Origin: a virus
Length of the DNA: 30,986 bases
Virus record (IMG/VR): IMGVR_UViG_3300038548_000122
Span: 1 to 30,986 of that record
Strand: one strand, 5' to 3'
Shown: positions 2,225 to 30,676 of the stretch, piece after piece
How positions within the stretch are numbered: the first letter of the stretch is position 1
Layout of the letters: each line of letters starts with the position of its first letter
Notes under the pieces: generated by a model
Seen by the model: the letters and a program-made list of their open reading frames with translations, nothing else
What the model was told of the DNA's origin: nothing
The model's database searches: none
Translations under genes and position numbers: made by a program

Positions 2225-2451
2225 AGCGCGGCCGACACGGATCGCAGGGCCAGGGCAAGCCAGGGATTGCGAAGGTCAATCGCGTAGGGAATTCGCTGCG
2301 TGAAGACGGCCTCAAGACCAACAAACGGTCGATGCCGAAAAGCGTGGGACTGCAAGCCCAGGCAACTCCCGGCGTTGAGGTCAGTGGCGAACCAAATCCC
2401 GAGCGGTTGAGCATTGCTTCACCGCCGAGATACCCCCACGGACTCGCGTAA
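2221..2451 (+). CDS. Small basic protein, function unknown
   Basis: A 76-residue protein coupled to the previous gene by an ATGA overlap. It is rich in Lys, Arg, Gly and Pro with a basic N-terminal half (MKRGRHGSQGQGKPGIAKV) and a Pro-rich end. No domain, membrane segment or metal site is visible. It resembles its partner at 1937-2224 in composition, so the two probably act together. It is the last gene before the terminator at 2472-2509 and thus closes the run of small genes. Nucleic-acid binding is possible from its charge, but this is only inference. Confidence 0.6.
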   Translation: MKRGRHGSQGQGKPGIAKVNRVGNSLREDGLKTNKRSMPKSVGLQAQATPGVEVSGEPNPERLSIASPPRYPHGLA

Positions 2452-2471
2452 CCCCGTGGATCTGAGAGTTA

Positions 2472-2509
2472 GGCTGGTGTGTGTCACTCCCGAGCGCACC
2501 AGCCTTTTT
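2472..2509 (+). terminator. Intrinsic (rho-independent) terminator
   Basis: GGCTGGTGTG (2472-2481) pairs with CGCACCAGCC (2495-2504) to give a 10-bp stem with one G-T pair and a 13-base loop, followed at once by TTTTT (2505-2509). It closes the run of small genes. The small terminase ATG at 2511 comes two bases after the T run, so late transcription that enters the packaging genes from upstream must read through it. Confidence 0.85.
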
Positions 2510-2510
2510 C

Positions 2511-3050
2511 ATGGCTGATCCCCGAAAAACCACCGCCAAGACCCCGCTGACGCCGTTGCAACATCGGTTCGTGATTGCCTACACGTCACAAGACTGGCTC
2601 TACAATGGCATGGCTGCGGCGAAAGCCGCTGGCTACAGTGGCAACGACCGCACCCTTGCGTCCCAAGCAAATCAGGCCATGCACAAGCCGAACGTATGGT
2701 CAGCGATCGAACGCCGGCTGAACGCGATCTACAACCGTGTGGGCCTGACGATCGAAAACGTCCTACGCGACCTCGAAATCACCCGCCAGGGCGCGATCCG
2801 CGATCGACGATGGGACACCGCGGCGCGCTGCTCTGAGTTGCATGGCAAATATCTGAAAATGTTTGTCGATCGGGTCGAACACATCCGCACCGTGGACGAT
2901 GCGACGACCGACGAGCTCGTGGGGCTGTTATCGCAACTGGTGGACAAGATAGATGGCTTCCCTGTCGTTGAGCGTATTGGAAGAATTGGGCCAATCGGAC
3001 CCGCTGAAAGCGGCGATGTTGGTGGCTCAGGAACTTCAACGACGCACTGA
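2511..3050 (+). CDS. terS: Terminase small subunit
   Basis: The protein (179 residues from ATG 2511) recognises phage DNA and hands it to the large terminase for packaging. Residues about 12-60 match the Terminase_2 pattern: LTPLQHRFVIAY, then a helix-turn-helix-like AAAKAAGYSGNDRTLASQAN and a short KPNVWSAIERRL. The C-terminal part is variable, as in this family, with a helical stretch (TTDELVGLLSQLVDKI). GTG 2481 would add ten residues, but it lies inside the terminator stem, so ATG 2511 is preferred. Neither start has a good Shine-Dalgarno, which is odd. The last 98 bases overlap the large terminase ATPase gene, an unusually long overlap that makes coupling of the two likely. Confidence 0.85.
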   Translation: MADPRKTTAKTPLTPLQHRFVIAYTSQDWLYNGMAAAKAAGYSGNDRTLASQANQAMHKPNVWSAIERRLNAIYNRVGLTIENVLRDLEITRQGAIRDRRWDTAARCSELHGKYLKMFVDRVEHIRTVDDATTDELVGLLSQLVDKIDGFPVVERIGRIGPIGPAESGDVGGSGTSTTH

Positions 3051-3690
3051 AACCCACGGCCTCGACTCTCTGTACCCCGAAGAAGGGCCACTTCGACGTG
3101 AGCTATACGTCAAGCATTTGCTCATGTTCGAAGCCGGCGCGATCCACAACGAACGCATCTGCATGGGCGGCAACCGGGTGGGCAAGACCTTCTCGATCGG
3201 CGGCTACGAAACCACCCTGCATCTGACGGGCCTTTACCCTGATTGGTGGAAGGGCCGCGTTTATGACCATCGCATCTTGAGTTGGGCCGGTGGCACCAAG
3301 GCAACCAAGGTGCGCGACGTGAACCAGCTATTCCTGGTGGGCAAGATCCTCGCCGATCGGCAGCTCGCCGGGGGTCTGATTCCGCAGCATCGAATCAAAC
3401 GCTATACGCGCAAGACCGGCATTGCCGACGCGATCGACCAGCTGACCATCAAGCACGTCAACGGCTATGACAATACGCTGATGTTCAAGTCCTACGAGGA
3501 AGGGCGCACCAGCTTTGAGGCCGAGGCCGTCGATTGGATCTGGCTCGATGAGGAACCGACCAGGGCGATCTACGATGAGTGCATGATGCGGCTGTTGACG
3601 GCGCGCGGCTCGATTATGTCCACGTTGACGCCGGTTGAAGGGATCACCGAAACGATCATCGGCATGCTCGAGGAAACGGATTTTCTATGA
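2953..3690 (+). CDS. terL: Terminase large subunit, ATPase half (split gene)
   Basis: A 245-residue protein carrying the packaging-motor ATPase domain and nothing else. Visible motifs are Walker A GGNRVGKT (72-79), Walker B WIWLDEE (195-201, with catalytic acid E200) and the coupling motif STLTPVEG (223-230). The N-terminal sequence EEGPLRRELYVKHLLMFEAG is typical of P22/T4-like large terminases. A normal relative continues into an RNase H-like nuclease domain for a total of about 450-500 residues. Here the protein stops at TGA 3688-3690, right after the ATPase core, and the nuclease appears as a separate gene at 4763. The stop overlaps the start of the first cassette gene (ATGA). The 245 + 242 residues of the two halves add up to a normal whole, so function as a two-chain enzyme is likely. 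Confidence 0.92.
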   Translation: MASLSLSVLEELGQSDPLKAAMLVAQELQRRTETHGLDSLYPEEGPLRRELYVKHLLMFEAGAIHNERICMGGNRVGKTFSIGGYETTLHLTGLYPDWWKGRVYDHRILSWAGGTKATKVRDVNQLFLVGKILADRQLAGGLIPQHRIKRYTRKTGIADAIDQLTIKHVNGYDNTLMFKSYEEGRTSFEAEAVDWIWLDEEPTRAIYDECMMRLLTARGSIMSTLTPVEGITETIIGMLEETDFL

Positions 3691-3917
3691 AACGACCGTT
3701 GTATCCGTATCGGAACAAATGTCAGGATTGCGGCCTACCACTCACGCGAGGGGATATCGTCAGTGCAGAAACCATTTGCGAGGCATGCGCGGGGATCCGC
3801 CTTGTCAAGTCAGCTCATCATCGCCAGGCTCGCGGAATACTCAGTAGCCCACTCCGGAGAGAGGTACGTGATCAGTCTGGAAACGGAGGCGGCGGAATTG
3901 CTGATGGCGATGTGTGA
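3687..3917 (+). CDS. Zinc-ribbon-like small protein in the terminase-splitting cassette
   Basis: A 76-residue protein whose ATG overlaps the stop of the ATPase half (ATGA at 3687-3690). C12-x2-C15 and C31-x2-C34 form a compact zinc-knuckle pattern (NKCQDCGLPL ... ICEACAG). The rest is basic, then Gly-rich, and the last 50 bases overlap the next gene, so the C-terminal tail may be under little selection. It is the first of four genes in the insert. Its function is unknown; the two knuckles suggest binding to nucleic acid or to a partner protein. Confidence 0.6.
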   Translation: MKRPLYPYRNKCQDCGLPLTRGDIVSAETICEACAGIRLVKSAHHRQARGILSSPLRREVRDQSGNGGGGIADGDV

Positions 3918-4101
3918 GGGCGTAAAGATCAAATCCGCCCAGGTCAAAGACAAGGCTGAACGGTTGCAAATGTTGCAGATCGGCAACCAGTTCAAGCGCC
4001 AAGCAGCAAACGGGATGGCGATGGAATATTGCGTCACCAACTTCACCGAGGGCTTGGAGGTTCACGGCGTCGAGATCGACTTCGAGCCGACCATCCATTG
4101 A
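3868..4101 (+). CDS. Small protein in the terminase-splitting cassette, function unknown
   Basis: A 77-residue protein. I chose GTG 3868 because GGAGAGAGG (3855-3863) is a strong Shine-Dalgarno at ordinary spacing. The frame is open further upstream (TTG 3802, ATG 3763), but that part overlaps the zinc-knuckle gene heavily. The sequence has a helical middle (KDKAERLQMLQIGNQFKRQA) and an acidic end (HGVEIDFEPTIH). No motif or family is recognised. The stop overlaps the next start as TTGA (4098-4101). The packing shows it is translated as part of the insert. Confidence 0.6.
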   Translation: MISLETEAAELLMAMCEGVKIKSAQVKDKAERLQMLQIGNQFKRQAANGMAMEYCVTNFTEGLEVHGVEIDFEPTIH

Positions 4102-4598
4102 TCGTCGTTCCGACAGTGCCCCACACAGGCACGCGCTTCATGCGCGATCACCTGTTCGCACGCCTGGAAGATGTCTACGTGGAACACCTGTGGCCGCGCG
4201 AAATAGACAAGTTGAACAAGGCGATGGACACCGCAAAGGCGATCGTTGTTCCGATGCGCCACCCGATCCGCGTGGCTGAGTCGTGGAAGTCGCGCAGCAA
4301 GCTCGAGAGCCCCGGCACCTGGGAGAACCTCGAGGGCTTCTGGTCACGGCTGTTTGAACACGTTGTCCCGCGGGAGGGTGTGTATTATCTGCCGCTCGAT
4401 CTGTCACTCGAGGCGCGACACAGTTGGTTGCAAAGGATCAATGCGGGTCTGCAAATGTCCATCACGACGACCTGGCCGATCGTCAGCGATGGCACGGCGG
4501 CGCTGTTTGCGCTGACCCTCGATCAAAAGGAAAAACAACGTGCCCAATGTATCGTTGATGCTGAACGGCCCTTCTTTGCCCAATTTGGCTATGACTAG
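4098..4598 (+). CDS. Sulfotransferase-like P-loop protein inside the split terminase
   Basis: A 166-residue protein starting at TTG 4098, which overlaps the previous stop (TTGA). ATG 4029 is an upstream alternative, but its extra residues are the shadow of the gene before. The N-terminus, IVVPTVPHTGTRFMRDHLF (2-20), matches the 5'-phosphosulfate-binding loop of sulfotransferases (PxxGTxxF-like). VPMRHPIRVAESWKSR (51-66) matches their 3'-phosphate-binding motif (RxPxRVAxSWxSR). The length is below the usual 250-300 residues, so it is a minimal form. In the family these motifs bind PAPS and transfer sulfate to a sugar, lipid or protein; the substrate here cannot be told. Possible roles are modification of host surface or nucleotide pools. 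The assignment rests on the motifs only. Confidence 0.6.
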   Translation: MIVVPTVPHTGTRFMRDHLFARLEDVYVEHLWPREIDKLNKAMDTAKAIVVPMRHPIRVAESWKSRSKLESPGTWENLEGFWSRLFEHVVPREGVYYLPLDLSLEARHSWLQRINAGLQMSITTTWPIVSDGTAALFALTLDQKEKQRAQCIVDAERPFFAQFGYD

Positions 4599-4770
4599 CG
4601 GCATGAAAAAGGCGTGCGTGCCGTGGGGCTCGTGGAACCTAAACACGGGCGTTTGGCATCACAACCCGCTGCTTGGCGCAACACGCGAAGCACAGCACCA
4701 CGAAAACCTGTTGAACGGCTACTCATGCCCACACGAATACCTCCCGTCGATGTGTCTGATCTGTGAGTAA
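4540..4770 (+). CDS. Small Cys/His-rich protein in the terminase-splitting cassette
   Basis: A 76-residue protein from GTG 4540 with AAAGGA upstream at good spacing; ATG 4594 is a possible shorter start. Its first 59 bases overlap the sulfotransferase-like gene. The second half is distinctive: PWGSWNLNTGVWHHNPLLG, then C63-x-H65 and C72-x2-C75 at the very end (YSCPHEYLPSMCLICE), a likely zinc site. The stop TAA lies inside the start of the nuclease half (GTGAGTAA, 4763-4770), so ribosomes leaving this gene can restart on the nuclease gene. Function unknown. Confidence 0.65.
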   Translation: MPNVSLMLNGPSLPNLAMTSGMKKACVPWGSWNLNTGVWHHNPLLGATREAQHHENLLNGYSCPHEYLPSMCLICE

Positions 4771-5491
4771 ATACGTCGATATGATCGCCTGGGAGGATGC
4801 TCCACATCTGATGCCGCCGAACATTCCCACGGAGGAACTCGATGCCCTCGAAAAGTCGATTCTGCCGCATCAAAGGCAAGCGCGGCGCACCGGCCGGCCA
4901 GCGTTGGGGGCTGGTGCTGTCTATCAGGTCGAGGAAGATTCGATCCTGATCGACCCTGTGCCGATCCCTGATTGGTGGCAACGCGCATACGGGTTCGACG
5001 TCGGCTGGAACCGCACCGCGGCGATATGGGGCGCGCGAGATCCGGACAGCGGCATCTACTACCTGACCCACGAGTATTACGAGAGTGAGCAGCAACCCAT
5101 CGTTCACGCGCACTCGATCAAGATGATTGGCGAGCCCTGGATGGTCGGCGCGATCGACCCGAGCGCCGAGGGATCGAATCAGAAGGATGGGACCAAGCTG
5201 AAAGATGAGTACGAAGACCTGGGCCTCACGCTCGAGAAGGCCAACAACGCAGTCAATTCAGGGATCTTGCGCGTGCTGACGCTGATGCAGGGCGGACAGT
5301 TCAAAGTGTTCCGCACGCTTCCGAATTGGCTCAAGGAATTTCGACTCTACCGCCGTGACGAGAAAGGCAAGATCATCAAGAGCAACGATCACCTGATGGA
5401 CGGCACGCGGTACATGGTCAACACCGACATTGTGTGGAATGCACCACCCGTGGATCACAGCGCGACCGCGATGAAAACCGGAGATTGGTAA
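4763..5491 (+). CDS. terL: Terminase large subunit, nuclease half (split gene)
   Basis: A 242-residue protein that corresponds to the linker and RNase H-like nuclease domain of a large terminase, which cuts DNA at the start and end of packaging. MIAWEDAPHL (7-16), the basic PHQRQARRTGRPALGAGAVY (35-54), YGFDVGWNRTAAIWGA (76-91, metal ligand D79), AIDPSAEG (130-137, D132) and HLMDGTRYM (210-218, D213) are the expected nuclease landmarks, with all three acidic ligands kept. It starts at GTG 4763, overlapping the previous stop. The missing ATPase part is the gene at 2953-3690. The TAA at 5489-5491 overlaps the portal ATG (TAATG). Confidence 0.92.
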   Translation: MSKYVDMIAWEDAPHLMPPNIPTEELDALEKSILPHQRQARRTGRPALGAGAVYQVEEDSILIDPVPIPDWWQRAYGFDVGWNRTAAIWGARDPDSGIYYLTHEYYESEQQPIVHAHSIKMIGEPWMVGAIDPSAEGSNQKDGTKLKDEYEDLGLTLEKANNAVNSGILRVLTLMQGGQFKVFRTLPNWLKEFRLYRRDEKGKIIKSNDHLMDGTRYMVNTDIVWNAPPVDHSATAMKTGDW

Positions 5492-7980
5492 TGAGCCGTC
5501 ACATCGACACGGGCAAGACAAACGTAATCACCAACGAAGTCCCTGAGAGCGCGGTCGTAGTCCCGAGTCCCGACGAAGACCTCGACGAATTCATGCGGAT
5601 GGCGCGGGTGCGCTACGACGTCATGGTTACGGCCTGGAACCAGAACCGCAACGATGCACTCGACGACGACAAGATGCTCGCGGGTGATCAGTGGGACGAG
5701 ATCATCGTCAAAGAGCGCACCGAGGAAGGCCGGCCGATCCTGACCTACAACCTGCTCCTGACGTTTTGCAATCAGATCGTCAACCAGGTCCGTCAAGACT
5801 GGCCGCAAATCAAGGTCAAGCCCGTGGACGCCAACGCCGGCCCGACGCAGATGATCGCCAATCTGCAAGGCAACAAGGACTACTCGATGGCTGAGGTCTA
5901 CATGGGCATCATCCGCAACATCGAGCATATTTCGCGTGCGGACCATGCGTACATCACCGCGCTCGAGCATCAAGTCCAGCACGGGTTCGGGTTCTTCCGC
6001 GCACAGCCGGTCTACACCCGCGACGACTCATTCGAGCAAGAAATCCGAATCTGGCGGATCAAGAATAGTTACTCCGTCCTGGTCGATGCCTCCGCGCAGG
6101 AAGCCGACTTTTCGGATATGCAGGATGCGTTCATTCACACGATGGTCCGCAGGGACCAGTTTCAACGAAAGTGGCCTGACGCGCGTGCGGTGAGCTTTGA
6201 ATCGAACGAGCAGGGCAACTCTTACGAAGGCTGGTACGACAAGGAATTGCTGCGAATTGCCGAGTATTTCTACATCGCCTACAAGCAGGACGAAGTGATC
6301 CAGCTCAACAACGGCATGGTTGTCTACGAAACCGACGTCAAAGAAGTCCTCGACGATATGAAGCGCGACGAAGGCATCTACGTGGTCAACTCGCGCAAGG
6401 TCAAGCGGCCCGTGTGCCGCTGGCAGAAGATGACGGCTCACGACATCCTCGAGGGGCCGGTCGATATCCCGTGTAGCTACATCCCGATCTTTCCCGTGCT
6501 TGGCAAAGAACTCATGCGGCACGGCGAAACGCGCTACAACAGCGCGATTCGTGACGCCAAGGACGCGCAACGCGCATTCAACTACTGGCAGACCGCCGCC
6601 AGCGAAACCGTTGCCCTGGCTCCGCGTGCGCCGTTCATCCTCACGCAGAAGCAGGTTGCCGGCCACGAAACGATGTGGGAGCAAGCCAACCGCAAGAACT
6701 TTCCCTACCTGCCCTACAACGCTCAAGAGAACGTCCCGCCGCCGCAGCGCCAGTACGCCGACGCCGGCGCGATCGCGGAGCTGCAACAGGCTGAATCGCA
6801 GAAGATGGTCATGCAGGACATCATTGGCATGCACGAAGCCAACGTGGGTGCGAAGTCCAACGAGCGATCCGGCGTGGCCGTGCGCGAACGCGCGCAGCGT
6901 GGCGAGCTGGCGACGTATGTGTTCCTCGACAATCTCTCGAGATCAATGGAACACCTGGGGCGCTGCTTGATCGAAATGATCCCGAAGGTCTACGACAGCC
7001 AGCGCATCTTGCGGCTGCGCCTCCCTGACGACAGCGAGGATTTCGTCGAGATCAACAAAGCCGTCCTCGACGAAGACACTGGCAAAACGGTTTATGTCCA
7101 CGATCTGACCTACGGCAAATACGACGTCGTGATCTCGACGGCCCCGAACTTTGCCACGCAGCGCGAGGAAGCACAGACCAACATCCTCGAAACGATGCAG
7201 CGGCTACCGCCCGACAAAGCGTCGATGGTCGTTCACCTGCTTGTGAAGAACATGGACTACCCCGGTGCGGACGAGGTTTACGAAGTCCTCCGGAAGATGC
7301 TGCCCGACGACTTCAAAACGCCTGACGAGCGCGCACGCGATCTGCCGTCTGGAATCACGCTGGACGACAACAACCAGCCCGTTGATGAGCAGGGCCAACC
7401 CTGGCAGAAGCCGCTATCCGCGCAAGAGCAGATTGCGATGGCCGAGCAAAACGCCGAAACCAAGAAGCACGAAGCAACCATCGAGAAAGCCAAGGCTGAA
7501 ACCGCCAAGGCCGCGGCGACCCTCGCGGAAGCGCAAGGCGAGATGGCTGCGCTGCAACAGGGTGGCGAGCAGGGCCAGGATGGAGCGGCTATGCAACAGC
7601 AAGGCGAGCAGATGACGGCTCAGATCATGCAGGAAGTTCAACAGCTCGTCACCGAACTCGTCGAGGCCGCGATGGAGCAGCACGAGGATCGCCCTGGCGC
7701 GCACGAAGCAATGGGCGTGGACGACAAGATCACAGAGGCGATGGTGGATGCGCTGCGGCGCGTGAAGAAAGTCTACGACGCTAAACTGGCCGATCTTGGA
7801 CCGGCGCTCACCGAAGCCAAGGTAGCGCAGCAGTCAGCGGGTGGTGACGGTGGTGGTTCGCCGGTCCAAGTCGAGGTCAACGTCCAGGGCACGCGCGTCG
7901 AGTCGATCGAGATCGAGCGCGGCGAGGATGGAACGTTGCGTGCCGTGCCCCAATACGAGGCTGAAACCGGGGCCGACTGA
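5491..7980 (+). CDS. Portal protein, P22-like
   Basis: An 829-residue protein forming the twelve-subunit ring at one capsid vertex through which DNA passes. The start is ATG 5491 (TAATG overlap with the nuclease gene, GGAG upstream); the frame is open from 5434, but that part is shadow. Typical features are an N-terminal AWNQNRNDALDDDKMLAGDQW, the RPILTYNLL strand and the FGFFRAQPVY wing region. NSAIRDAKDAQRAFNYW and AKSNERSGVAVRERAQRGE match the crown/clip helices of P22-like portals (P22 gp1 has 725 residues). Residues about 650-735 form a Gln/Glu/Ala-rich coiled coil, probably the extended barrel. It is followed without a gap by the decoration block (TGATG). Confidence 0.93.
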   Translation: MSRHIDTGKTNVITNEVPESAVVVPSPDEDLDEFMRMARVRYDVMVTAWNQNRNDALDDDKMLAGDQWDEIIVKERTEEGRPILTYNLLLTFCNQIVNQVRQDWPQIKVKPVDANAGPTQMIANLQGNKDYSMAEVYMGIIRNIEHISRADHAYITALEHQVQHGFGFFRAQPVYTRDDSFEQEIRIWRIKNSYSVLVDASAQEADFSDMQDAFIHTMVRRDQFQRKWPDARAVSFESNEQGNSYEGWYDKELLRIAEYFYIAYKQDEVIQLNNGMVVYETDVKEVLDDMKRDEGIYVVNSRKVKRPVCRWQKMTAHDILEGPVDIPCSYIPIFPVLGKELMRHGETRYNSAIRDAKDAQRAFNYWQTAASETVALAPRAPFILTQKQVAGHETMWEQANRKNFPYLPYNAQENVPPPQRQYADAGAIAELQQAESQKMVMQDIIGMHEANVGAKSNERSGVAVRERAQRGELATYVFLDNLSRSMEHLGRCLIEMIPKVYDSQRILRLRLPDDSEDFVEINKAVLDEDTGKTVYVHDLTYGKYDVVISTAPNFATQREEAQTNILETMQRLPPDKASMVVHLLVKNMDYPGADEVYEVLRKMLPDDFKTPDERARDLPSGITLDDNNQPVDEQGQPWQKPLSAQEQIAMAEQNAETKKHEATIEKAKAETAKAAATLAEAQGEMAALQQGGEQGQDGAAMQQQGEQMTAQIMQEVQQLVTELVEAAMEQHEDRPGAHEAMGVDDKITEAMVDALRRVKKVYDAKLADLGPALTEAKVAQQSAGGDGGGSPVQVEVNVQGTRVESIEIERGEDGTLRAVPQYEAETGAD

Positions 7981-12053: not shown

Positions 12054-12086
12054 AGCCATCGGTTCGCTTAGGAGCTACCGATGGCT
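12054..12086 (+). promoter_or_regulatory. Start-codon hairpin of the coat gene
   Basis: AGCCATCGGT (12054-12063) and ACCGATGGCT (12077-12086) are perfect reverse complements. The 10-bp stem contains the coat start codon ATG (12081-12083), and the 13-base loop carries the Shine-Dalgarno TAGGAG (12069-12074). Ribosomes must therefore open the stem, or bind at the loop, to start coat synthesis. It is a clear candidate for translational control. What opens it is unknown. Confidence 0.8.
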
Positions 12087-13310
12087 AACACCCTAATCAC
12101 TCCCTCGATCATCGCTCAAGAAGCGTTGTTCCAGTTGGAGAACAACACGGTGATGGGCGATAAGGTTCATCGCCAGTACAAAAACGAGTTCGTCAAGATC
12201 GGCGCGAGCGTCACAATCCGGCGTCCGGTGCAGTTCGTTGTTTCTGATGGCGCTGTGCGCGTCAACCAGGACATCATCGAGCCGACGACCTCCATCACGA
12301 TCGACCAACGCAAGCACGTTTCGTGGCTGTTCTCGGCGCAGGACTTGACCCTCACGGTCGAAGAATATTCCGAGCGTTACATCAAGCCGGCCATGATCCA
12401 GCTCGCCAACAACATCGACGTTGCGCTCGCACTCGAGGGCGCGAACGAGTTTTTCAACGCTGTTGGAACCCCTGGCACCACGCCATCCGCATTCTCCGAC
12501 CTGGGTGATGTCGCGCAGCGCATGGACGAGTTCTCCATCCCTGACGACTACAACCGTTGCTTGGTTCTGAACCCTGCGGCACGCTGGTCGATCGCTGACG
12601 GCCTGGGCGCGGTGTTCAACGCCGAGATCACGGGCGACACGATCCGCAAGGGTCGCTTGGGTGAGATCGCCAACTTCAACATCTATGGCGATCAGAACAT
12701 CCGAACGCATCTGGTTGGCACGCACAGTGGCACGCCGCTGGTCATGGGCACCATCGTCAACTCAGGTCCGCCATCGGCGTCAACGACCACCACGGCGGTT
12801 CCGTTCGATGCGATGGTCGGCACCGTGACGGGTGCGTTGCTTGTAGGTGACGTGTTCACCATCGACGGTGTGAACTCTGTCAATCCGGTGTCGAAGGACG
12901 ATTCCGGCGTACTGCAGCAGTTCGTGGTCACGGCCGACGTCGATACCACGGCCGGCGCGGGTACGGCCCAGGTCTATCCGATTATGAACGACGGCACGGA
13001 CGCGGCGACTGCAGGATTCCAGACTGTCTCGGCGCTTCCTGCGAACAACGCCGGCATCAACATCCTTGGTGCGTCAGCCGCGACCTACGTGAACAACCTG
13101 GCTTTCCACACGAACGCCTTGGCCCTGGTCACGGTTCCGCTCGAGCTGCCTGATTCGGCAACGTTCAAGGCACGGGCCGACTGGCGTGGGTACTCGATCC
13201 GCGTGATCAAGGACTACGACATCACGAACGACGAGGAAATCATCCGCCTCGATATCCTGTATGGCGTACAGGCCATCTACCCCGAGCTTGGCGTAAGAAT
13301 GCTTGGGTGA
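12081..13310 (+). CDS. Major capsid (coat) protein, P22 gp5-like
   Basis: A 409-residue protein that builds the icosahedral shell. The N-terminus, MANTLITPSIIAQEALFQLE, and the block VKIGASVTIRRPVQF, then EPTTSITIDQRKHVSWLFS, are typical of the P22 coat family, which has the HK97 fold (P22 gp5 is 430 residues). LTVEEYSERYIKPAMIQLANNID is the family's spine-helix region. Residues about 235-320 (Gly/Thr/Val-rich) fit the inserted surface domain of P22-like coats. It follows the scaffold by 39 bases. Its start codon lies in a hairpin, and a second hairpin with a GCAA loop follows the stop, so its expression is probably controlled at both ends. Confidence 0.92.
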   Translation: MANTLITPSIIAQEALFQLENNTVMGDKVHRQYKNEFVKIGASVTIRRPVQFVVSDGAVRVNQDIIEPTTSITIDQRKHVSWLFSAQDLTLTVEEYSERYIKPAMIQLANNIDVALALEGANEFFNAVGTPGTTPSAFSDLGDVAQRMDEFSIPDDYNRCLVLNPAARWSIADGLGAVFNAEITGDTIRKGRLGEIANFNIYGDQNIRTHLVGTHSGTPLVMGTIVNSGPPSASTTTTAVPFDAMVGTVTGALLVGDVFTIDGVNSVNPVSKDDSGVLQQFVVTADVDTTAGAGTAQVYPIMNDGTDAATAGFQTVSALPANNAGINILGASAATYVNNLAFHTNALALVTVPLELPDSATFKARADWRGYSIRVIKDYDITNDEEIIRLDILYGVQAIYPELGVRMLG

Positions 13311-21496: not shown

Positions 21497-24400
21497 GTGG
21501 CAGAGGAACAAACCAAGCTCGATATTTACCGAAAGCGCAACCCGCGCTTCGATGATGTCTCAGACGATATCCTGGTCAACAACCTGTGGGAGAGCCACTA
21601 TCAGGACATTGATGCGGACGTCTTCCGCGAGATCATGGGTGTTGGGGATTTTGCAACCACCCGCGAAGGTGAGTTCCAAACCGAGATCATTCGTCCAGGT
21701 CAGAAACCTTTTCGCACCAAGCTCGACGACGTACTGACCGACCCTGAGAACCAACTAAAAGACCAAGCCCCCGACGACCTCGGCTCGGCGCTTGATGAGT
21801 TCGACACCCCACCCGATCACATGGCCCCTTTGCGCGCCCATGCTCAACGCAACATCGACCGTGGAACCTTGGCTAATACGCCGGAAGGGATGGCGTCGGT
21901 GCGTAGCGGATCGGTCAACCACGAGCTGCTCAACGACGGTCGAACGACGCTGATCCCGTTTCAGTGGGATGGCGAGATCCTCGATCCACGCGAAGCGACA
22001 CAGCGAGCGATTGACTCCGGTATTCAATGGCCGGCGTTTGACTCCATCGACGAAGCAACCGCGGCATCAAAGCAGTTGAGCGGCAGTCTCGAATTAAACC
22101 TGCGCGTCGGCCAAGGCGCATGGGCCGACCCCGAGCGACCTGGCTACTTCTCCAACATTGCTCGACGCGGCGGCGAGCGTATGGCGGGGCTGGTCGGCAG
22201 CGTGCTCACCACAACTTCGACGCTGACCGAAACCACTGGCCGCGCGGGTGATGTGGCGCTCGCGGAGTGGTGGTACGACCCAGGGCTCGAGCGCGACGTC
22301 GCCGTGAACTACGCGAAGACCCGACCCAACTTCTTCGCCACGTTGGGCGAACACCTGCAAAACGTCGATTACGGTTCGGTCGAGAACTACGGCAAAGAGA
22401 AGATCGAGGAAGCCTGGGACAAAGGCGAATACCTGGGGATGACGGGCGAAATCATTGCCTGGGGCATTGAGGAAGGGGCCGCGTCGATCCCCGATATGAT
22501 CGGCGTTATGTACGCCTTGCCGTCGTACATCACCGCACGCTCCGGAGAGATGGGCACGGAACGCGCGAAGAACGACGGCCGCGATCAAGCGACGACGACC
22601 GACATCATCACAGCTATCCCGGCCGCGATCGGTTCTGCGCTGTTCGAACGATGGGGTGCCTCGTTCATCATCAAGCAGATGCAAAAAGCGGGAATGGCTT
22701 TCAAGAAGGATGCGCTCGAGACAGCGGAAGATCTCGGACGAAATCTGATCCAGCGGGTGTGGGAAAGCGTCAAAGGTGCTGGCAAAACTGCCGGCATGGA
22801 AGGGTTCACCGAAGCCGTGCAGGAAGGGGTGTTCGAATACCTGGGCGAGACTTGGGGCACGGACGTCGAGCTGTCGGCACGTAAGGCAGCAATCCGTGGA
22901 TTTTGGGGTGCGCTCGCCGGTTTTGTGTTCGGTGGCACAGCGGGTGGCCTGAGTACCGCGGCGAAAGAGGCCGGCCATGCGATCAGTGCGCTGGACGCCA
23001 TCCCCGAAGAATTCCTGACGGATCCCGATATGCGTCCGGACCCTGACGGACCAAGGCCAGATCCACCGACGCGGCCGGGAGAGGAAGGGCCACCGATCGA
23101 GGAACCACCAGCTGATATCGACGCAGACCTGGCGCAGCAATCCGAAGTCGCAATGGGTGAGGTCGCGCGTCTTGAAGATGAAGTGGCAAGCCTTGAAAAA
23201 GAGATCGACCAGCTCGATCCAGCCGACACCGAAGCGCGCCTCGATGCAGGTGGATTGCTCGCGGGGGCCGAGGCTGACTTGCAAACAGCTCGAGCGAATC
23301 AGACGCGGATCGACAAAGAGATCGAACGGCGTAAGTTCGGGCCACCGCCCGAGCGCCCACGCGACCTACCGTTCGAGGTTGAAGAAGATCTCGAGAAATC
23401 AAACGCCGAGGTCACTCGTCTTGAAGGTGAATTGGCGACCCGCGAACAAGATCTGAAAGACGACCGTTTGCTCCAGACCCTCGGCCGGGTGACACGTGCC
23501 GACGTCGAGGCCAGCGAAAGACGAGTCAGTGAGGCGCAAGCTGAGTTGGACGCGGAGAGAACCAATCAGACAGAGCTTCAAGAAAGGCTCGACAACTTTG
23601 TTATCGAAGACATTTCCGAACTGACGCAGGCCGACTTGAAGGCGCTGTGGGAAGAAAGCAGCCGGAAATGGCAAGCAGCCGAGGAAGCCGGCGACGTCGC
23701 ACTCGCGGCCACGCTTAAAGCCGAACTCGACACGGTGCAGGATGAGGTCTTGCGCCGCGAAGCAGCCGGCGAACTCGAGCCAGCGCCAAGCGAGACATTC
23801 CCGCCACCGGACTACACGCCCACAACAGAGGCGGAAACGCTGCTCGAGGATATACGACTCGAGATTATCCAACTCGAGTTCCAGAACAACGAGGTGCGCG
23901 AGCAGCTCGACGCATTGACGCCCGAACAGCGAGCAAACATTCCCCCGGCAGAGTGGCTTAACTACGCCGAGCTGTTCGCCTCATTCGAGGAACGCCGCAT
24001 CGACTACGTGCGGCAAAAAGCAACCGTCGAGCAGCTCCGCGCCGACCGCCAGCGCCCAGGTCGAGAGGTTGACGAAGCACTCGCCAAAGACATCATGGAC
24101 GTCTTGCGTTCGATTCGAGACTTTGGACCGAACGTCGATATTGCCGTGAACGCCGAAGAAATGGCCGAAATGGTTGCTCGAGCGCAGCGAGGGGAGAACC
24201 TCGAGGCTATCGCGGCGGCGTTCTGGCGCGGGGAACTCGAGAGCGTTGGCGGTTTCGACGTCGAAGCCGAAAACGCCCGCATCGAGGCAGAAGACGAAGC
24301 GGAGCGAGAAATCCAACGCGAGCGATTGGGTCCAGAATTTCGCGCCTACGAAGCTGCCACGCGCGAGCTGCAGGAACTTGTCGCGCAGCTTTCGAAGAAG

Positions 24401-27400
24401 TACGGGGAGTGGGAACGGTTCGACTACGACGAGCGGATCGGCACGGAGATCGACACGCTCAAAGAACAGTTTGACGAGCTGGACGCGGAACGCGACAGGT
24501 TGAAAGCTCTGTGGCAAGCCGCGAGCCCTGTGGTCCGCACCAGCTTTGCCGGCACCTACGAAATGGCCGGCCAGGAATTCGAGTTCGAAAACGCGCTCGA
24601 CGTCAACCCTCAAACCATGCAGCTAATCATGGAACGCATGTCTGAGGCCGGGATGGACCCCACCAGCCGGGACGCGGACGATGAGTCCGTCTACGGCCGT
24701 CAGGACTTCCACCAATACGCCGAAGAACACGGCTACGACGGGATCATCTTCCACGGTTGGCCCCAACGGGATTTCGAGATCGCGTCGGATATGGGCTTCG
24801 ACGAAGAACTGATGGATGAGTCCGTCGAAGACATCGCGCGTGAAGTTCCGCCGCCCACGCCGCCCACGGACATCACGCCGCCTCCGGAGGTCACGCCGAC
24901 CGCGCGTGATTGGCGGTACGTGGATCCGCGTATGAAGCGCCAGAAGTTTCGTGATTTCCTCCGGGGGCTCAAAGAGGAATTCCAATCCGGCAAGGGTGTG
25001 GGTTCGATCGTTCGGGATCCAATTAGCGGAGAGGTCACGGGCCGCATCACCAGCCCGAATCCGCTATGGGTTCAGGAGTACCTCTCTGAAACCGGCATGA
25101 CGGTCGAGCAGGTTCACAACGCGATCGACAAAGCCCTGGCCGGCCAACGCCTGGGGCATCGTCAGGAAGCATTGGTCAAATCGCTGCTCGACAAGATCAG
25201 CGACGATCGCCAGGAAAAATACATCGACGCCGCACGCAAAGAACTCAAAAAAAGGCGGGACGAGCGGCGAAATTTTGGCGGCGATCCGGACGCAAGGATC
25301 GAGGACGAGTTTTACGACAAGCTCGGCGAGAACTTCGCCGAGTCAGACTATTGGAACTTCGACGATCAGGAACGGATCATCAACGATCTGGCCTATCGGC
25401 TCGTTGAGCTTGGCCTTGACCCCGACCCGATCCTCGCACGCTCACGGAATGACGAAGAACTCATCAGGCGCTTAGAGGAAGCTCTATATGACTACGAAGC
25501 GGGGACGCGCGGTCTTGAGGCGGATGCGGGAGAACAAGCGGACGGGCCACAAGCCGGCGTGGAAGCATACGTTGAAGCCTTTGAAGCAACCGGATGGCGA
25601 GTCGAAGGATTAGCTCCCGATCAGATCTACACCGATGCGGAGGCTGCTTATCCGATATTCGGACCAGCCGGGTATTTCTTCTTCAATGAAGCAGATGCCG
25701 GCAAGTTTGCGGAAGACCCCATCCGCGACTATCCAGAGGCGCAACCCGAGATCACGTCAGAGCCCGTGGTCATTGCGAGTCCCTACCGCATCCGCACTGA
25801 CGCCGAATACAAGGCGCTCGTCACCGCGTCTGGATGGGACGGCTTTCCCAACCCAATGCAGATGCAAGGCACGCCAGAAGAACGGTTGGCGAAGTATCAG
25901 GAGTTCGCCAACGGCATCCGCGAGTATCTAGCCACGCACGGTTTCGATGGCGTCGTGATTGAATTCCACTCCGGCGTCATGGATGTAGACGTTGCGGGCA
26001 ATCCGATCTCGTTGATACGCGACGTGTTCGATACGCCGCAGATGATCGTGTTTGCCCCGTCAGATGAAGCCCTGGCCGGCGCTGACGACCTGGCTGGCTA
26101 CATCGGCGCGAGGATCTTTCACGAAGGCGTGTTGGCCGAGTACACGGGCGCGACCCGAGTGATTGATGGTGACGTGCAATACGAGGTGCTTTTCCTCGCG
26201 GGTGGTCGCCGGGACACCACGGCATGGCTACCGGGCGATCCGATGGAACGCCTCCGTGCCGACCAAGCCCTGGCCGATGAGAAAAGCCGTAAAGCGCGGG
26301 AACTCGAGGGCGGGGAAACCGATCTATCAGATACGCCGCTGTTCGGTCCTGACCAGGGCGACATCTTCGATCTCGAGGGCGTCGAAACCGGAGCGTTGGA
26401 ACAGGTCAGACGTAAGGCGCAGATCCGGCTTCGAGCAGATCGGACCATGGAAACGCTAGGCGAGCAGCTCGGCGAAGACTTCTTGCTGATCGACGACGCA
26501 ATGCTGGACGAGTTCATTCAACGCATGGATGAGGAATTCGCTGGCGACCTGACCGAAGCCCTGGACGACTTCTACGAGCTGACTGCCGCCGAACGCTTGT
26601 TGCTCGACGCGATCATTTCCCGAATCGACACAACGGGCGAGCGGCGCGGCAACACCGAGGCCGAATCTCGCCGCCGCGAAGTCATCGACGCCATGACGCA
26701 CGAACAACGACTGGCGGCGATCTACACCGACGAGCTGACCGGCCTGGGCAATAAACGTTTGCTCAACGAAAACATTATGGATGCGCCTTTCGTCCTCGCT
26801 TTCGATCTGGACAACTTGAGTGTCGTCAACGACGAGCTCGGCCGTGACGTGGGAGACAAGCTGCTGCAGGCCATGGCCGACGTGATCAAGCGGAACGTGG
26901 ACGAGGGCTTCCATACGTCAGGCAGTAACTTCGTGATCCTGGGTGACGATCTTCAAGAGCTGTCGGAGATTGCCGCCGAGATCGAAAAGGACTTGGCCGA
27001 AGCTGCGGTGGGAGGTGAGCGTGGCGAGCTGCGTGGACTCAAAGCGAATTGGGGCGTTGCGCCTGATTTGCGTACGGCTGACCAGGTGGCTCGACTTCAA
27101 AAGCAGAGAAAGCTCGACTCTGGCGAGCATTACCCGCGCGGCGTAGTCCCGCCGAACCTGACCCTGGCCGGCACCACCGATCCCGAGATCGACGCCGCCA
27201 AAGATCCGATGGCCGAACCCGGCGACAACTACATTCCGATGATCGGCAAGACGGGTGAGCTGCCGCTGGATCAGGACAACAACTACGTGCTATCGGATGG
27301 CCGGCGCGTTCGAATTCCCAAAAAGGCGGTACGCAAGGCACACATCATCCGCTACATGAAGGACGTCTTTGGCCTGCAAATCTACACCGGGCGCGTCAAA

Positions 27401-30400
27401 GGCAAGACCTGGCTCGGCTTCTATCGCAAGAGAATCGGTGAGATCCGGACCAAGTTCCAAAACGATCTCGAGGTGACGGCGCACGAAGTCGGTCACTGGT
27501 TCGACGACCGATACAACTACTCAAATCTGTACGAGGCCCACAAGAAAGAGCTGAACGACGTCAGCTACGACTCATCGAAGACCAACGAGGGTTTCGCGGA
27601 GTTCTTCCGTTTGTATCTGACGCAGGAACACGAAGCACAAAAGCGTGCGCCATTCTTCTTCGAAGTCTGGAAAAACCACCTCGACGAGATGAGCGAAAGC
27701 GACCTCAAATCAGATCGGGAAATGGCCGCGGGGTTGCGTGACGTGCAGGAAATGATGCACGCCTGGTATCTGCAAGGCGCGGGGAAACGGTTGGATTCGA
27801 AGATCGGCAATCCCAACTTGCCGCTGTCGATCCGCTTCCAAGAATTCCGCGTCCAGGCCGCTGACTATGTAATCCAAAAGACGCTCGACCAGCTCCGTTC
27901 GTTCAAGCAAGTCGCACGGACGCTTGGTGTCTGGAACGAGCTTGGCGGGTTCTATCAGGACTTCCGCAAAGCCAAGGTCAGCAACGAAGTGGCGATGGTC
28001 TTTATCACGAAGGGCACGGGGATTCGAACCGAAGTCGCGGGCGAGGCGATGCCTGGGCAGTTGAAGCACACCGGCGACGAGCAGGTTGGCGATATGCAAT
28101 GGACCGGCGAGGCGCTTAACGACATCTTCCGCGACGTTGCCGACAACATGGACAACTTCGTTCGCTACATGGTGGCACGCCGCGGCCGTGAGCTTTACAA
28201 CCAGGGCCGTGAACATCACCTGCGCCCCGATGAGATCGTCTTTGGCCTCAAGTTCGGCGTTGCTGATGAGCGTTTCGAGGGTGTGTTCGATCGCTACCAA
28301 GCGTGGAACTCACGGATGATGGATTACTACGTGCAAAGCGGCATCGTCAGTGAAAGCAGCCGTCAGCAGATGGAGGCGATGAACCACGACTATGTGCCGT
28401 TCAACAGGATCATCGACGCCTTAAACTCCAACACCGTGCAGCGCGGCACGAGAACAACGCCCTTCCAACGTTTGCGCGGCGGCACGGCGAACCTCAACGA
28501 CGTGATGGACAACATCCACACCAACACGTCGTTCTTGGTTCACATGGCAATGGTCAACCAGGCCAAGCGTGGCCTCTACGACGCCATCGACAACGCTGAA
28601 GACCAGGCCGGCGCGATGTATGCCGTGAGGATCCCGCGTGAAGTGAAATCGACCATGATTCCGCGGGAGCAGGTCGAGCGCGCCGTCGTGCATGGTTTTG
28701 GTTTGACCATGCGCGAGTGGCGACACATGACCGATGGGGTTGGAGTTGTGGACGAGGCGGAAGCTCAAATGGTCGAGCGGATCAACGCCGCCTTCGACAC
28801 ATTCGAGCCATTCGTACAGTTTTGGCAAGTGGGCGTGGAGCCGACGTCGGGCAAGGGCGACCAGCTGGTGGATTTCGTGTTCCGCAACGGACGCAAGGAT
28901 TTCTACGAGATCATGGACCCGATGCTGATGGATTCGATCAATCACGTTGGTCCGCAAGCACACAACCTGGCCGTGCGGATCTTGGGTGGCTTCTCCAATC
29001 TGCTGCGCCGCACCGTGACGTCGTTTCCGCTATTTCAATTTAGCAACTGGATCCGCGACACGATGCAAGCCTGGACGCTCACGAAGGGTCGCGCGATCCC
29101 GATCGTGCCAGCAGTCAACGCCCTGTTCGAACGCATGTGGGACGACACACACTATTGGGAATACGTCCTCAACGGCGGCGGCATGGCAACCATCGCCCAG
29201 GCCGAAGGCATCAACGCCGACCACATCATCGACTTCAACAAGCCGGCGCGGGGGCTTTGGGAGAAATCGAAGCGCATGTGGCGGGCCTACGACCGCGCCC
29301 TCTCGACGCTCGAGTACGCCAACCGACTTGCGGAGTTCAAGGAACTTCGAAGGTTGGGTTACAGCAAGCAGGAAGCAGCGTTTGCCGGCCGTGAGATATC
29401 CACCGACTTTGCGATGCGCGGCAGCTCCGACGCGATGCGCGTGATCACGATCTCAATTCCGTTTCTCAACGCCAGGATGCAGGGTGGCTATCGGCTCGCA
29501 AGAGAGGCTTACGCGAAGGGACCAGCCGAATCAGTGGGTCACATCCGATGGCAAAGCGCCATGAAATACGCGAGTCGAGCCATGATCGGCATCACGATCC
29601 CGACCATCGTTCTGTACTTCATGAACAAGGACGACTGGAGATATAAGGACATGCCCGATTGGATGCGGGACATGAATTGGGTGATCTTTTACGGGTGGGG
29701 CGAAGACGACTACGTTTTGATGCCCAAGCCGTTCGAAACCGGCTTGGCCTGGGCGACCGTGCCGGAACGCACCATCGAATATATGTATACGAACGACGAG
29801 GGGGAGCTGGCCGACGCGCTTGGTTGGATGTTCATGGAGACATTTGCCCTGGACGTGCGCCCACAAGCGTACAAGCCCATCGACGAGATCATCCGCAACA
29901 AAAAATGGACCGGAGCCCCGGTGGTTCCTGCATACCTCGAGGACGTGATTGCCTCGCAGCAGTACAAGCACTACACGTCCGACGCGATGGTGGCGCTTGG
30001 CAAGAAGATGGGGATTTCGCCGCTCAAGGCCGAGCATTTGGTGAGTGGCTACGCAGCACAATTAGGCCAGTATTCGCTGGCGGTTGCCGACTTCATCGTG
30101 GGTGATACAACCAATGGCGGTCAAAAGGTCGCGCCTTTTGGTCGGGAGGTTGACGACCAGGCGCTATTCGAACTGTGGGGCCGCGAGTTCTACGCAGACC
30201 TTCCCGAAACGATCTTCGATTCAGTGTTCTTGCAGCGGATCAAGGCTCAAGGCCCGTTGCGCCGCACGCGCAGCGAGGAAGATTTTTACGACCTACTGAA
30301 AGCTGCACGCACGACCGCCAACACCGTCCAGTTGATGAAGCTCCGCGACCTCGAGGGGCTACGGGAATATCTGAGCCGGGGCAAAGAAGCGACGTTCTAC

Positions 30401-30676
30401 GGGCTCGCATCGACGCTCGAGGAACGATCGCGGGAAGTGAACAAGATCAACTCGCGCATGGATGCGGTGGCCGTCAACCCCGATATGACGGGCGTGGAGA
30501 AGCGCGACACACTTAACGAGCTGCAACGCTTCAAAAACCAAATTCACAGGGCCACGATGCAACAGCTCGACGTCGAACAACTCGAGGAAATGGAAGCACT
30601 GATGGAACAAGCCTACGTGCCGCCAGAGCCCGAGTCCGAGGCCAGCCAAACTCTGGACGCCTTGCGACAACAGTGA
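21497..30676 (+). CDS. Giant polyvalent internal virion protein (3059 residues)
   Basis: One frame of 9.2 kb, GTG 21497, three bases after the previous stop. In order: an N-terminal region (IYRKRNPRFDDVSDD); a hydrophobic Gly/Ala segment near 468-485; a long coiled coil about 545-760; an ART-like fragment about 1015-1100 (HGYDGIIF, 1078-1085); and a second ADP-ribosyltransferase-like region about 1355-1525 (GPAGYFFFNEADAGKFAEDP, then HGFDGVVIE and QMIVFAPSDEAL). These are followed by a GGDEF-like domain about 1742-1830 with a broken active loop; a metallopeptidase with HEVGH (1996-2000) and E2031/E2035; an LPD38-like region about 2490-2680; and one membrane helix near 2690-2708. This is the architecture of phage polyvalent proteins, which are packaged and ejected with the DNA. 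No lytic transglycosylase motif was recognised. Confidence 0.85.
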   Translation: MAEEQTKLDIYRKRNPRFDDVSDDILVNNLWESHYQDIDADVFREIMGVGDFATTREGEFQTEIIRPGQKPFRTKLDDVLTDPENQLKDQAPDDLGSALDEFDTPPDHMAPLRAHAQRNIDRGTLANTPEGMASVRSGSVNHELLNDGRTTLIPFQWDGEILDPREATQRAIDSGIQWPAFDSIDEATAASKQLSGSLELNLRVGQGAWADPERPGYFSNIARRGGERMAGLVGSVLTTTSTLTETTGRAGDVALAEWWYDPGLERDVAVNYAKTRPNFFATLGEHLQNVDYGSVENYGKEKIEEAWDKGEYLGMTGEIIAWGIEEGAASIPDMIGVMYALPSYITARSGEMGTERAKNDGRDQATTTDIITAIPAAIGSALFERWGASFIIKQMQKAGMAFKKDALETAEDLGRNLIQRVWESVKGAGKTAGMEGFTEAVQEGVFEYLGETWGTDVELSARKAAIRGFWGALAGFVFGGTAGGLSTAAKEAGHAISALDAIPEEFLTDPDMRPDPDGPRPDPPTRPGEEGPPIEEPPADIDADLAQQSEVAMGEVARLEDEVASLEKEIDQLDPADTEARLDAGGLLAGAEADLQTARANQTRIDKEIERRKFGPPPERPRDLPFEVEEDLEKSNAEVTRLEGELATREQDLKDDRLLQTLGRVTRADVEASERRVSEAQAELDAERTNQTELQERLDNFVIEDISELTQADLKALWEESSRKWQAAEEAGDVALAATLKAELDTVQDEVLRREAAGELEPAPSETFPPPDYTPTTEAETLLEDIRLEIIQLEFQNNEVREQLDALTPEQRANIPPAEWLNYAELFASFEERRIDYVRQKATVEQLRADRQRPGREVDEALAKDIMDVLRSIRDFGPNVDIAVNAEEMAEMVARAQRGENLEAIAAAFWRGELESVGGFDVEAENARIEAEDEAEREIQRERLGPEFRAYEAATRELQELVAQLSKKYGEWERFDYDERIGTEIDTLKEQFDELDAERDRLKALWQAASPVVRTSFAGTYEMAGQEFEFENALDVNPQTMQLIMERMSEAGMDPTSRDADDESVYGRQDFHQYAEEHGYDGIIFHGWPQRDFEIASDMGFDEELMDESVEDIAREVPPPTPPTDITPPPEVTPTARDWRYVDPRMKRQKFRDFLRGLKEEFQSGKGVGSIVRDPISGEVTGRITSPNPLWVQEYLSETGMTVEQVHNAIDKALAGQRLGHRQEALVKSLLDKISDDRQEKYIDAARKELKKRRDERRNFGGDPDARIEDEFYDKLGENFAESDYWNFDDQERIINDLAYRLVELGLDPDPILARSRNDEELIRRLEEALYDYEAGTRGLEADAGEQADGPQAGVEAYVEAFEATGWRVEGLAPDQIYTDAEAAYPIFGPAGYFFFNEADAGKFAEDPIRDYPEAQPEITSEPVVIASPYRIRTDAEYKALVTASGWDGFPNPMQMQGTPEERLAKYQEFANGIREYLATHGFDGVVIEFHSGVMDVDVAGNPISLIRDVFDTPQMIVFAPSDEALAGADDLAGYIGARIFHEGVLAEYTGATRVIDGDVQYEVLFLAGGRRDTTAWLPGDPMERLRADQALADEKSRKARELEGGETDLSDTPLFGPDQGDIFDLEGVETGALEQVRRKAQIRLRADRTMETLGEQLGEDFLLIDDAMLDEFIQRMDEEFAGDLTEALDDFYELTAAERLLLDAIISRIDTTGERRGNTEAESRRREVIDAMTHEQRLAAIYTDELTGLGNKRLLNENIMDAPFVLAFDLDNLSVVNDELGRDVGDKLLQAMADVIKRNVDEGFHTSGSNFVILGDDLQELSEIAAEIEKDLAEAAVGGERGELRGLKANWGVAPDLRTADQVARLQKQRKLDSGEHYPRGVVPPNLTLAGTTDPEIDAAKDPMAEPGDNYIPMIGKTGELPLDQDNNYVLSDGRRVRIPKKAVRKAHIIRYMKDVFGLQIYTGRVKGKTWLGFYRKRIGEIRTKFQNDLEVTAHEVGHWFDDRYNYSNLYEAHKKELNDVSYDSSKTNEGFAEFFRLYLTQEHEAQKRAPFFFEVWKNHLDEMSESDLKSDREMAAGLRDVQEMMHAWYLQGAGKRLDSKIGNPNLPLSIRFQEFRVQAADYVIQKTLDQLRSFKQVARTLGVWNELGGFYQDFRKAKVSNEVAMVFITKGTGIRTEVAGEAMPGQLKHTGDEQVGDMQWTGEALNDIFRDVADNMDNFVRYMVARRGRELYNQGREHHLRPDEIVFGLKFGVADERFEGVFDRYQAWNSRMMDYYVQSGIVSESSRQQMEAMNHDYVPFNRIIDALNSNTVQRGTRTTPFQRLRGGTANLNDVMDNIHTNTSFLVHMAMVNQAKRGLYDAIDNAEDQAGAMYAVRIPREVKSTMIPREQVERAVVHGFGLTMREWRHMTDGVGVVDEAEAQMVERINAAFDTFEPFVQFWQVGVEPTSGKGDQLVDFVFRNGRKDFYEIMDPMLMDSINHVGPQAHNLAVRILGGFSNLLRRTVTSFPLFQFSNWIRDTMQAWTLTKGRAIPIVPAVNALFERMWDDTHYWEYVLNGGGMATIAQAEGINADHIIDFNKPARGLWEKSKRMWRAYDRALSTLEYANRLAEFKELRRLGYSKQEAAFAGREISTDFAMRGSSDAMRVITISIPFLNARMQGGYRLAREAYAKGPAESVGHIRWQSAMKYASRAMIGITIPTIVLYFMNKDDWRYKDMPDWMRDMNWVIFYGWGEDDYVLMPKPFETGLAWATVPERTIEYMYTNDEGELADALGWMFMETFALDVRPQAYKPIDEIIRNKKWTGAPVVPAYLEDVIASQQYKHYTSDAMVALGKKMGISPLKAEHLVSGYAAQLGQYSLAVADFIVGDTTNGGQKVAPFGREVDDQALFELWGREFYADLPETIFDSVFLQRIKAQGPLRRTRSEEDFYDLLKAARTTANTVQLMKLRDLEGLREYLSRGKEATFYGLASTLEERSREVNKINSRMDAVAVNPDMTGVEKRDTLNELQRFKNQIHRATMQQLDVEQLEEMEALMEQAYVPPEPESEASQTLDALRQQ

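Follow-up and report, generated by a model that had tools for sequence, protein, structure and literature searches.

Can the motor that packages the DNA of tailed phages be made in two pieces? The large terminase (TerL) is used as a universal marker of these phages and is expected to be a single chain; in current models, ATP hydrolysis in its ASCE core moves a covalently attached lid. The question is raised by a 30,986-base linear virus record of IMG/VR, IMGVR_UViG_3300038548_000122 (the window, meaning the whole stretch analysed), in which TerL occupies two open reading frames (ORFs) in different frames and 1072 nt apart: terL-A (2953..3690, + strand), the ATPase core, and terL-B (4763..5491, +), carrying the ATPase lid, linker and RNase H-like nuclease. 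Our answer, to which we give a probability of about 0.8, is that this is a stable TerL gene-in-pieces: the two chains would rebuild the motor across the core-lid interface, and the junction between their genes would be a site for cargo. A viral motor that ranks among the most conserved can, it appears, function when divided in two.

The two ORFs account for one complete TerL. The terL-A product (245 aa; ATG start, TGA stop) matches Pfam Terminase_6N (E 2.3e-7; 31.1 bits against a cut-off of 22) over positions 1-152 of 215, carries Walker A (GGNRVGKT), Walker B (IWLDEE) and coupling (motif III, TLTP) motifs that are largely invariant in the alignment of ATPase halves (A1), and ends just past the last of these; it is 44-65% identical to relatives L002-L006. 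The terL-B product (242 aa; GTG start, TAA stop) matches Terminase_6C (E 9.2e-16; 58.6 bits, cut-off 22.6), keeps the acidic metal ligands D79, D132 and D214, and is matched by the solved P22 nuclease (4dkw, E 1.4e-23) in an alignment beginning at residue 48. Each half by itself aligns end to end with intact TerLs, and their sum, 487 aa, is in the size range of the intact full-length relatives that were read (473-509 aa); the locus thus holds two adjacent conserved ORFs that add up to one intact homologue, not the usual single polypeptide of core, lid and nuclease. An initial annotation of the window had proposed this division, with the ATPase half ending at 3690, the nuclease half beginning at 4763, their motifs intact and nothing missing, and in this it was correct. 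It had also raised the possibility of a second intact large terminase elsewhere in the genome: the 30,986-bp record contains none, nor a second ATPase. No second TerL was found in 13 other split records, the nuclease match being single in 12 of them, and bacterial and archaeal genomes yielded no relative of the split ATPase. Between close relatives, the ratio of nonsynonymous to synonymous substitution rates (dN/dS) is 0.10-0.22 for the ATPase half and 0.05-0.17 for the nuclease half; by this measure both are under strong purifying selection, and both are therefore working genes.

The break itself does not fall, as the initial annotation had it, in the linker between the two domains; profile and structural mapping place it instead within the ATPase domain as Pfam defines it, ahead of the lid. 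By a profile of intact TerLs, the second chain begins at the equivalent of residue 197 of D6E TerL, and in six split genomes it is the nuclease chain that carries approximately positions 155-214 of Terminase_6N. The lid residues named for D6E TerL are Y213, M216 and R224, with 230-241 forming the linker to its nuclease (PMC5727402). On these alignments the break is at the boundary of ASCE core and lid, after the coupling motif and about 35 residues before the inter-domain linker, and the lid lies within roughly the first 47 aa of terL-B. With the lid on the nuclease chain, the two chains would therefore have to meet to form a complete ATPase. In intact relatives the break region is a loop, between ..FLPDG and ..KFVVMATWDD, whose length differs by 5-20 residues; the split is presumably tolerated, and recurrent, because it sits in this variable surface loop. 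One intact TerL (L010:1490-1608) has about 30 additional residues in the loop where others break.

The same break is inherited by relatives of the window. Scanning with the ATPase half gave 80 loci, and profile scans added more; the four nearest (60-65% identity) are without exception split, their inserts measuring about 0.6-1.8 kb. In all, 20 contigs beyond the window share the break (near-identical ones included, and L135 lacking the ATPase end), their halves being 48-65% identical. Across this clade the halves stop and start at essentially the same residues: the ATPase C-terminus is ..LLEGSDFL followed by a stop codon, or its equivalent, in most, and a start codon (ATG, GTG or TTG) stands at the nuclease start in every relative read. 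The arrangement is not due to chance, because 20 other contigs repeat it, with conserved ORFs. The initial annotation, which called a two-chain motor with cargo unusual, was right to see a settled arrangement, heritable and conserved as it is, but not a unique case, since it recurs in a large group of relatives.

Between the halves, as that annotation also described, the insert is filled with overlapping genes: all 1072 nt lie inside four ORFs (c1 to c4), and the junctions ATGA, TTGA and GTGAGTAA are present. The first, c1 (3687..3917, +), overlaps terL-A by ATGA and encodes a small CxxC...CxxC, zinc-ribbon-like protein, identified by hidden Markov model (HMM) matches and by alignments (A4/A8) in which its four cysteines are invariant; its match to Pfam Zn_ribbon_8 is weak (E 0.03). 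We considered whether c1 might be the remnant of a homing-nuclease zinc finger and found no support, a profile comparison giving CxxC matches only, with probabilities of 5.7% and 0.5%. The second, c2 (3763..4101, +; HMM E 2.6e-40; alignment A5), encodes a helical protein of about 112-115 aa with a C-terminal beta-hairpin, its AlphaFold2 (AF2) prediction having a mean confidence (pLDDT) of 84, and has no Pfam, PDB or viral fold match. c1 and c2 overlap in different frames over some 150-190 nt (3763-3917 in the window; L090:777-964), an unusually long dual-coding stretch.

These two genes lie between the halves in all 21 clade contigs, as detected by HMM (for c2, E 5e-11 or better at every locus), and the smallest clade inserts, of 413-425 nt, consist of exactly c1 and c2 with short overlaps on both sides. 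Neither HMM matched any other fetched locus outside the clade; c2 is absent from the 50,697 phage records searched, and further scans of viral contigs found it only in contigs with a split terL. The remaining insert genes vary among clade contigs. The initial annotation had asked whether relatives share the cargo as well as the break; of the four cargo genes, just these two are common to all. In the window these others are c3 (4098..4598, +) and c4 (4540..4770, +). c3, which starts with TTG in a TTGA overlap with c2 and has the motif P-x-T-G-T-H/R-F, is common to the window and L003, L086, L088, L137 and L302 (33-36% identity); it has no Pfam or PHROG family match, and its AF2 model (pLDDT 85.7) finds many sulfotransferases among its Foldseek matches (E 0.006-0.1), weak fold matches which tentatively suggest a P-loop, sulfotransferase-like protein. 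c4, a 76-aa orphan with a GTG start, a Shine-Dalgarno-like AAGGA 8 nt upstream and an end in the GTGAGTAA overlap with terL-B, matches no Pfam or PHROG family and is the weakest-supported of the four. Elsewhere in the clade, L005 carries a PHROG 1544 gene with holin-like hydrophobic segments, and L086 a Tad2-like gene (L086:2634-2876, E 2.8e-24) and an Acb2/Tad1 hairpin-domain gene (L086:2717-3130, E 3.9e-15); the latter two, of types that act as anti-defence sponges for signalling nucleotides, overlap in different frames. A weak match to the C/D box RNA sR28, under the gathering score, was seen at L003:342-405 (-).

Beyond the clade, the loci with both halves comprise 67 split and 206 intact entries, counted with redundant entries, and a few that have frameshifts at other points of the gene, still included. 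Of 101 non-redundant TerLs placed in a maximum-likelihood tree, 43 are split and 58 intact, proportions that reflect the queries used, so that 43% is not a natural frequency; L185, L022, L055, L132 and L133, with frameshift-like breaks elsewhere, were left out. Split and intact states on this tree need 12 changes, and well-supported branches force at least six of these. All 10 members of the window clade are split (support 100/100), as are all 11 of another group. The tree indicates that the same cut arose several times in related viruses. Many of the splits in other clades are bare overlaps of 1-17 nt (ATGA, for example) with no cargo. The four genes do stand between the halves, as first reported, but the cassette need not be the cause of the split, because many relatives are split without any insert and only two of its genes are conserved. 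Start codons at the break are enriched across all split loci, in 24 of 39 against 10 of 32 (p 0.017), a modest enrichment only, since in many lineages the start lies a few codons further upstream. Homing-type nucleases occupy the gap in three other split lineages: HNH in L103, endonuclease VII in L207 and a T5orf172/GIY-YIG-like protein in L144. The split also occurs in a complete circular genome, MW202785.1 (Podoviridae sp. ct2G2228), with a gap of 133 nt; GenBank gives it two adjacent 'large terminase protein' genes and does not comment on the split. At L217:4998-5003 the halves are parted by a single TAA with ATG immediately after it in the same frame, and readthrough would give a joined TerL.

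On the preferred reading, a single operon would be translated by way of its overlapping stop and start codons, with terL-A supplying the ASCE core and terL-B the lid and nuclease. The chains would most likely bind across the natural core-lid interface and act as one TerL, force from the core reaching the lid across a non-covalent contact in place of a peptide link. In some lineages a homing-type nuclease gene or a simple stop-restart change is the probable origin of the split, after which the junction would have taken up cargo: c1 and c2 in every clade member, with changing extras that include anti-defence genes. Certain points weigh against this account. No homing nuclease lies in the gap of the window clade, and c1 does not match one convincingly, so that an origin by such an insertion, plausible for some lineages, is unproven here; fission, rather than fusion, depends on taking the known intact TerLs as ancestral; and most of the relatives' contigs are fragments, so that in some a TerL could lie elsewhere in the same virus.

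How far c1 and c2 belong to the motor is a matter on which the evidence divides. That one or both are motor parts, such as a clamp joining the chains, is compatible with the two-chain reading and possible, though we do not favour it: they occur without exception in the 21 contigs, in each case between the halves, and nowhere else searched, while the other cargo turns over; on the other side, they are absent from other split lineages, evolve faster than the terminase halves (dN/dS between close relatives 0.2-0.6 for c2 and 0.3-1.0 for c1), and c2 has no fold match. Doubtful, to a similar degree, is a further step in which the core and the lid-nuclease would be separate, exchangeable subunits held together with the help of c1 and c2 by a non-covalent and possibly regulated joint.

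The chains might also act apart, terL-A serving as a motor on its own and terL-B only as an independent headful nuclease. The packaging ATPase of phi29 has no active nuclease. We regard such a division of labour as improbable here: the lid that the ATPase requires sits on the nuclease chain, and the two genes remain in one operon in every relative, even if packaging ATPases without an active nuclease do exist (phi29; PMC7672431).

Spliced terL genes are documented in other phages (PMC10448857; PMC12363816), and the insert might likewise be a self-splicing intron or intein whose removal yields a single joined TerL, as happens in ICP1 and the Jug phages. This appears very improbable. The initial annotation saw no room for a ribozyme, and we found no relevant Rfam match in the window, six clade relatives or ten other split loci, no group I/II fold with an in-frame exon junction, and no intein residues at either edge of an insert that is fully coding. 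Even the smallest inserts are wholly covered by the two conserved ORFs, and in many lineages the same break is an overlap of 1-8 nt, with no room for an intron. A splice rejoining the halves would need to start before the stop codon of one and end after the start codon of the other, both of which are conserved in the clade. Assembly error, frameshift or gene decay, as in the few loci with frameshift-like breaks elsewhere in the gene, can be set aside, given an identical break in 21 contigs and several other clades and purifying selection on both halves.

The preferred reading, a TerL in two chains, has precedents in other enzymes. Split phage enzymes are already known, and some work (Aeh1 NrdA, phage 25 gp43; PMC2988022), as are terL genes that are spliced or bear inteins. 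The T4-like genes-in-pieces (Aeh1 NrdA/mobE, T4 topoisomerase gene 60, and gp43 of phages 25 and 44RR) likewise have one essential enzyme in two chains encoded by neighbouring genes, separated by a gene or a spacer; two of these three split enzymes have been shown to be active (PMC2988022). The present case differs in that the enzyme is a packaging motor, that the split recurs at one loop over many lineages, and that the gap holds a conserved two-gene cassette with variable cargo, not one homing nuclease; a homing endonuclease gene lies between the pieces in Aeh1 and T4 cases, though not in all, and in none of the window clade. The terL genes of ICP1 and the Jug phages (introns) and of Marshall (an intein) are also interrupted by foreign sequence, and a T5orf172 gene adjoins that of ICP1 (PMC10448857, PMC12363816, PMC3853055); in those, splicing restores one TerL, whereas here no splicing element was found and each half has its own start and stop. 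EBPR podovirus 1 and MW202785.1, which are among the closest named relatives of the halves (41-49% identity) and keep the terL-portal order, have an intact and a split TerL respectively. In the open-access literature searched we found no description of a two-gene TerL split at the core-lid boundary, recurrent and with conserved cargo.

A motor naturally cut between core and lid, and several times, offers a ready system for asking whether the covalent link matters, and the terL junction becomes a place to seek the cargo of phages, anti-defence genes among it. Such phages will be missed or mislabelled by gene callers expecting a single TerL. PHROG 31467, which matches window 2953-3690, is ATPase-sized (261 positions) and labelled as of unknown function; PHROG 5653, which matches 4763-5491, is a terminase family of the size of the nuclease half (199 positions). 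Because of the split, TerL may go unrecognised in annotation.

The gene order around the insert is terS, terL-A, c1, c2, c3, c4, terL-B, portal. terS (2481..3050, +; Pfam Terminase_2 E 1.4e-9, PHROG 51 E 9e-17), the small terminase subunit, overlaps terL-A and may start further in; the P22-type portal gene (5491..7980, +; Pfam P22_portal E 2.8e-155) overlaps terL-B by TAATG, and a P22-type coat protein is encoded at 12081-13310. Neither sigma-70 promoter-like sites nor forward terminator-like sites were found in window 2300-5600, which is weakly suggestive of one transcript.

Some further observations concern relatives and distant parts of the window. Comparison of L090:1-700 with L091 shows about 100 differences in the ATPase gene up to nt 503, then near-identity for 3.6 kb, a switch that could reflect recombination or a chimeric contig end; we considered it as a case of reassortment of the halves, but it lies inside the gene and near a contig end, where a chimera is possible. 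At window 21497-30676 a 3059-aa protein has an LPD38 domain (E 7e-38) and a GGDEF-type domain (E 2e-9); it looks like a large polyvalent phage protein whose diguanylate-cyclase domain is possibly degenerate, its signature apparently being SGSNF, not GGDEF.

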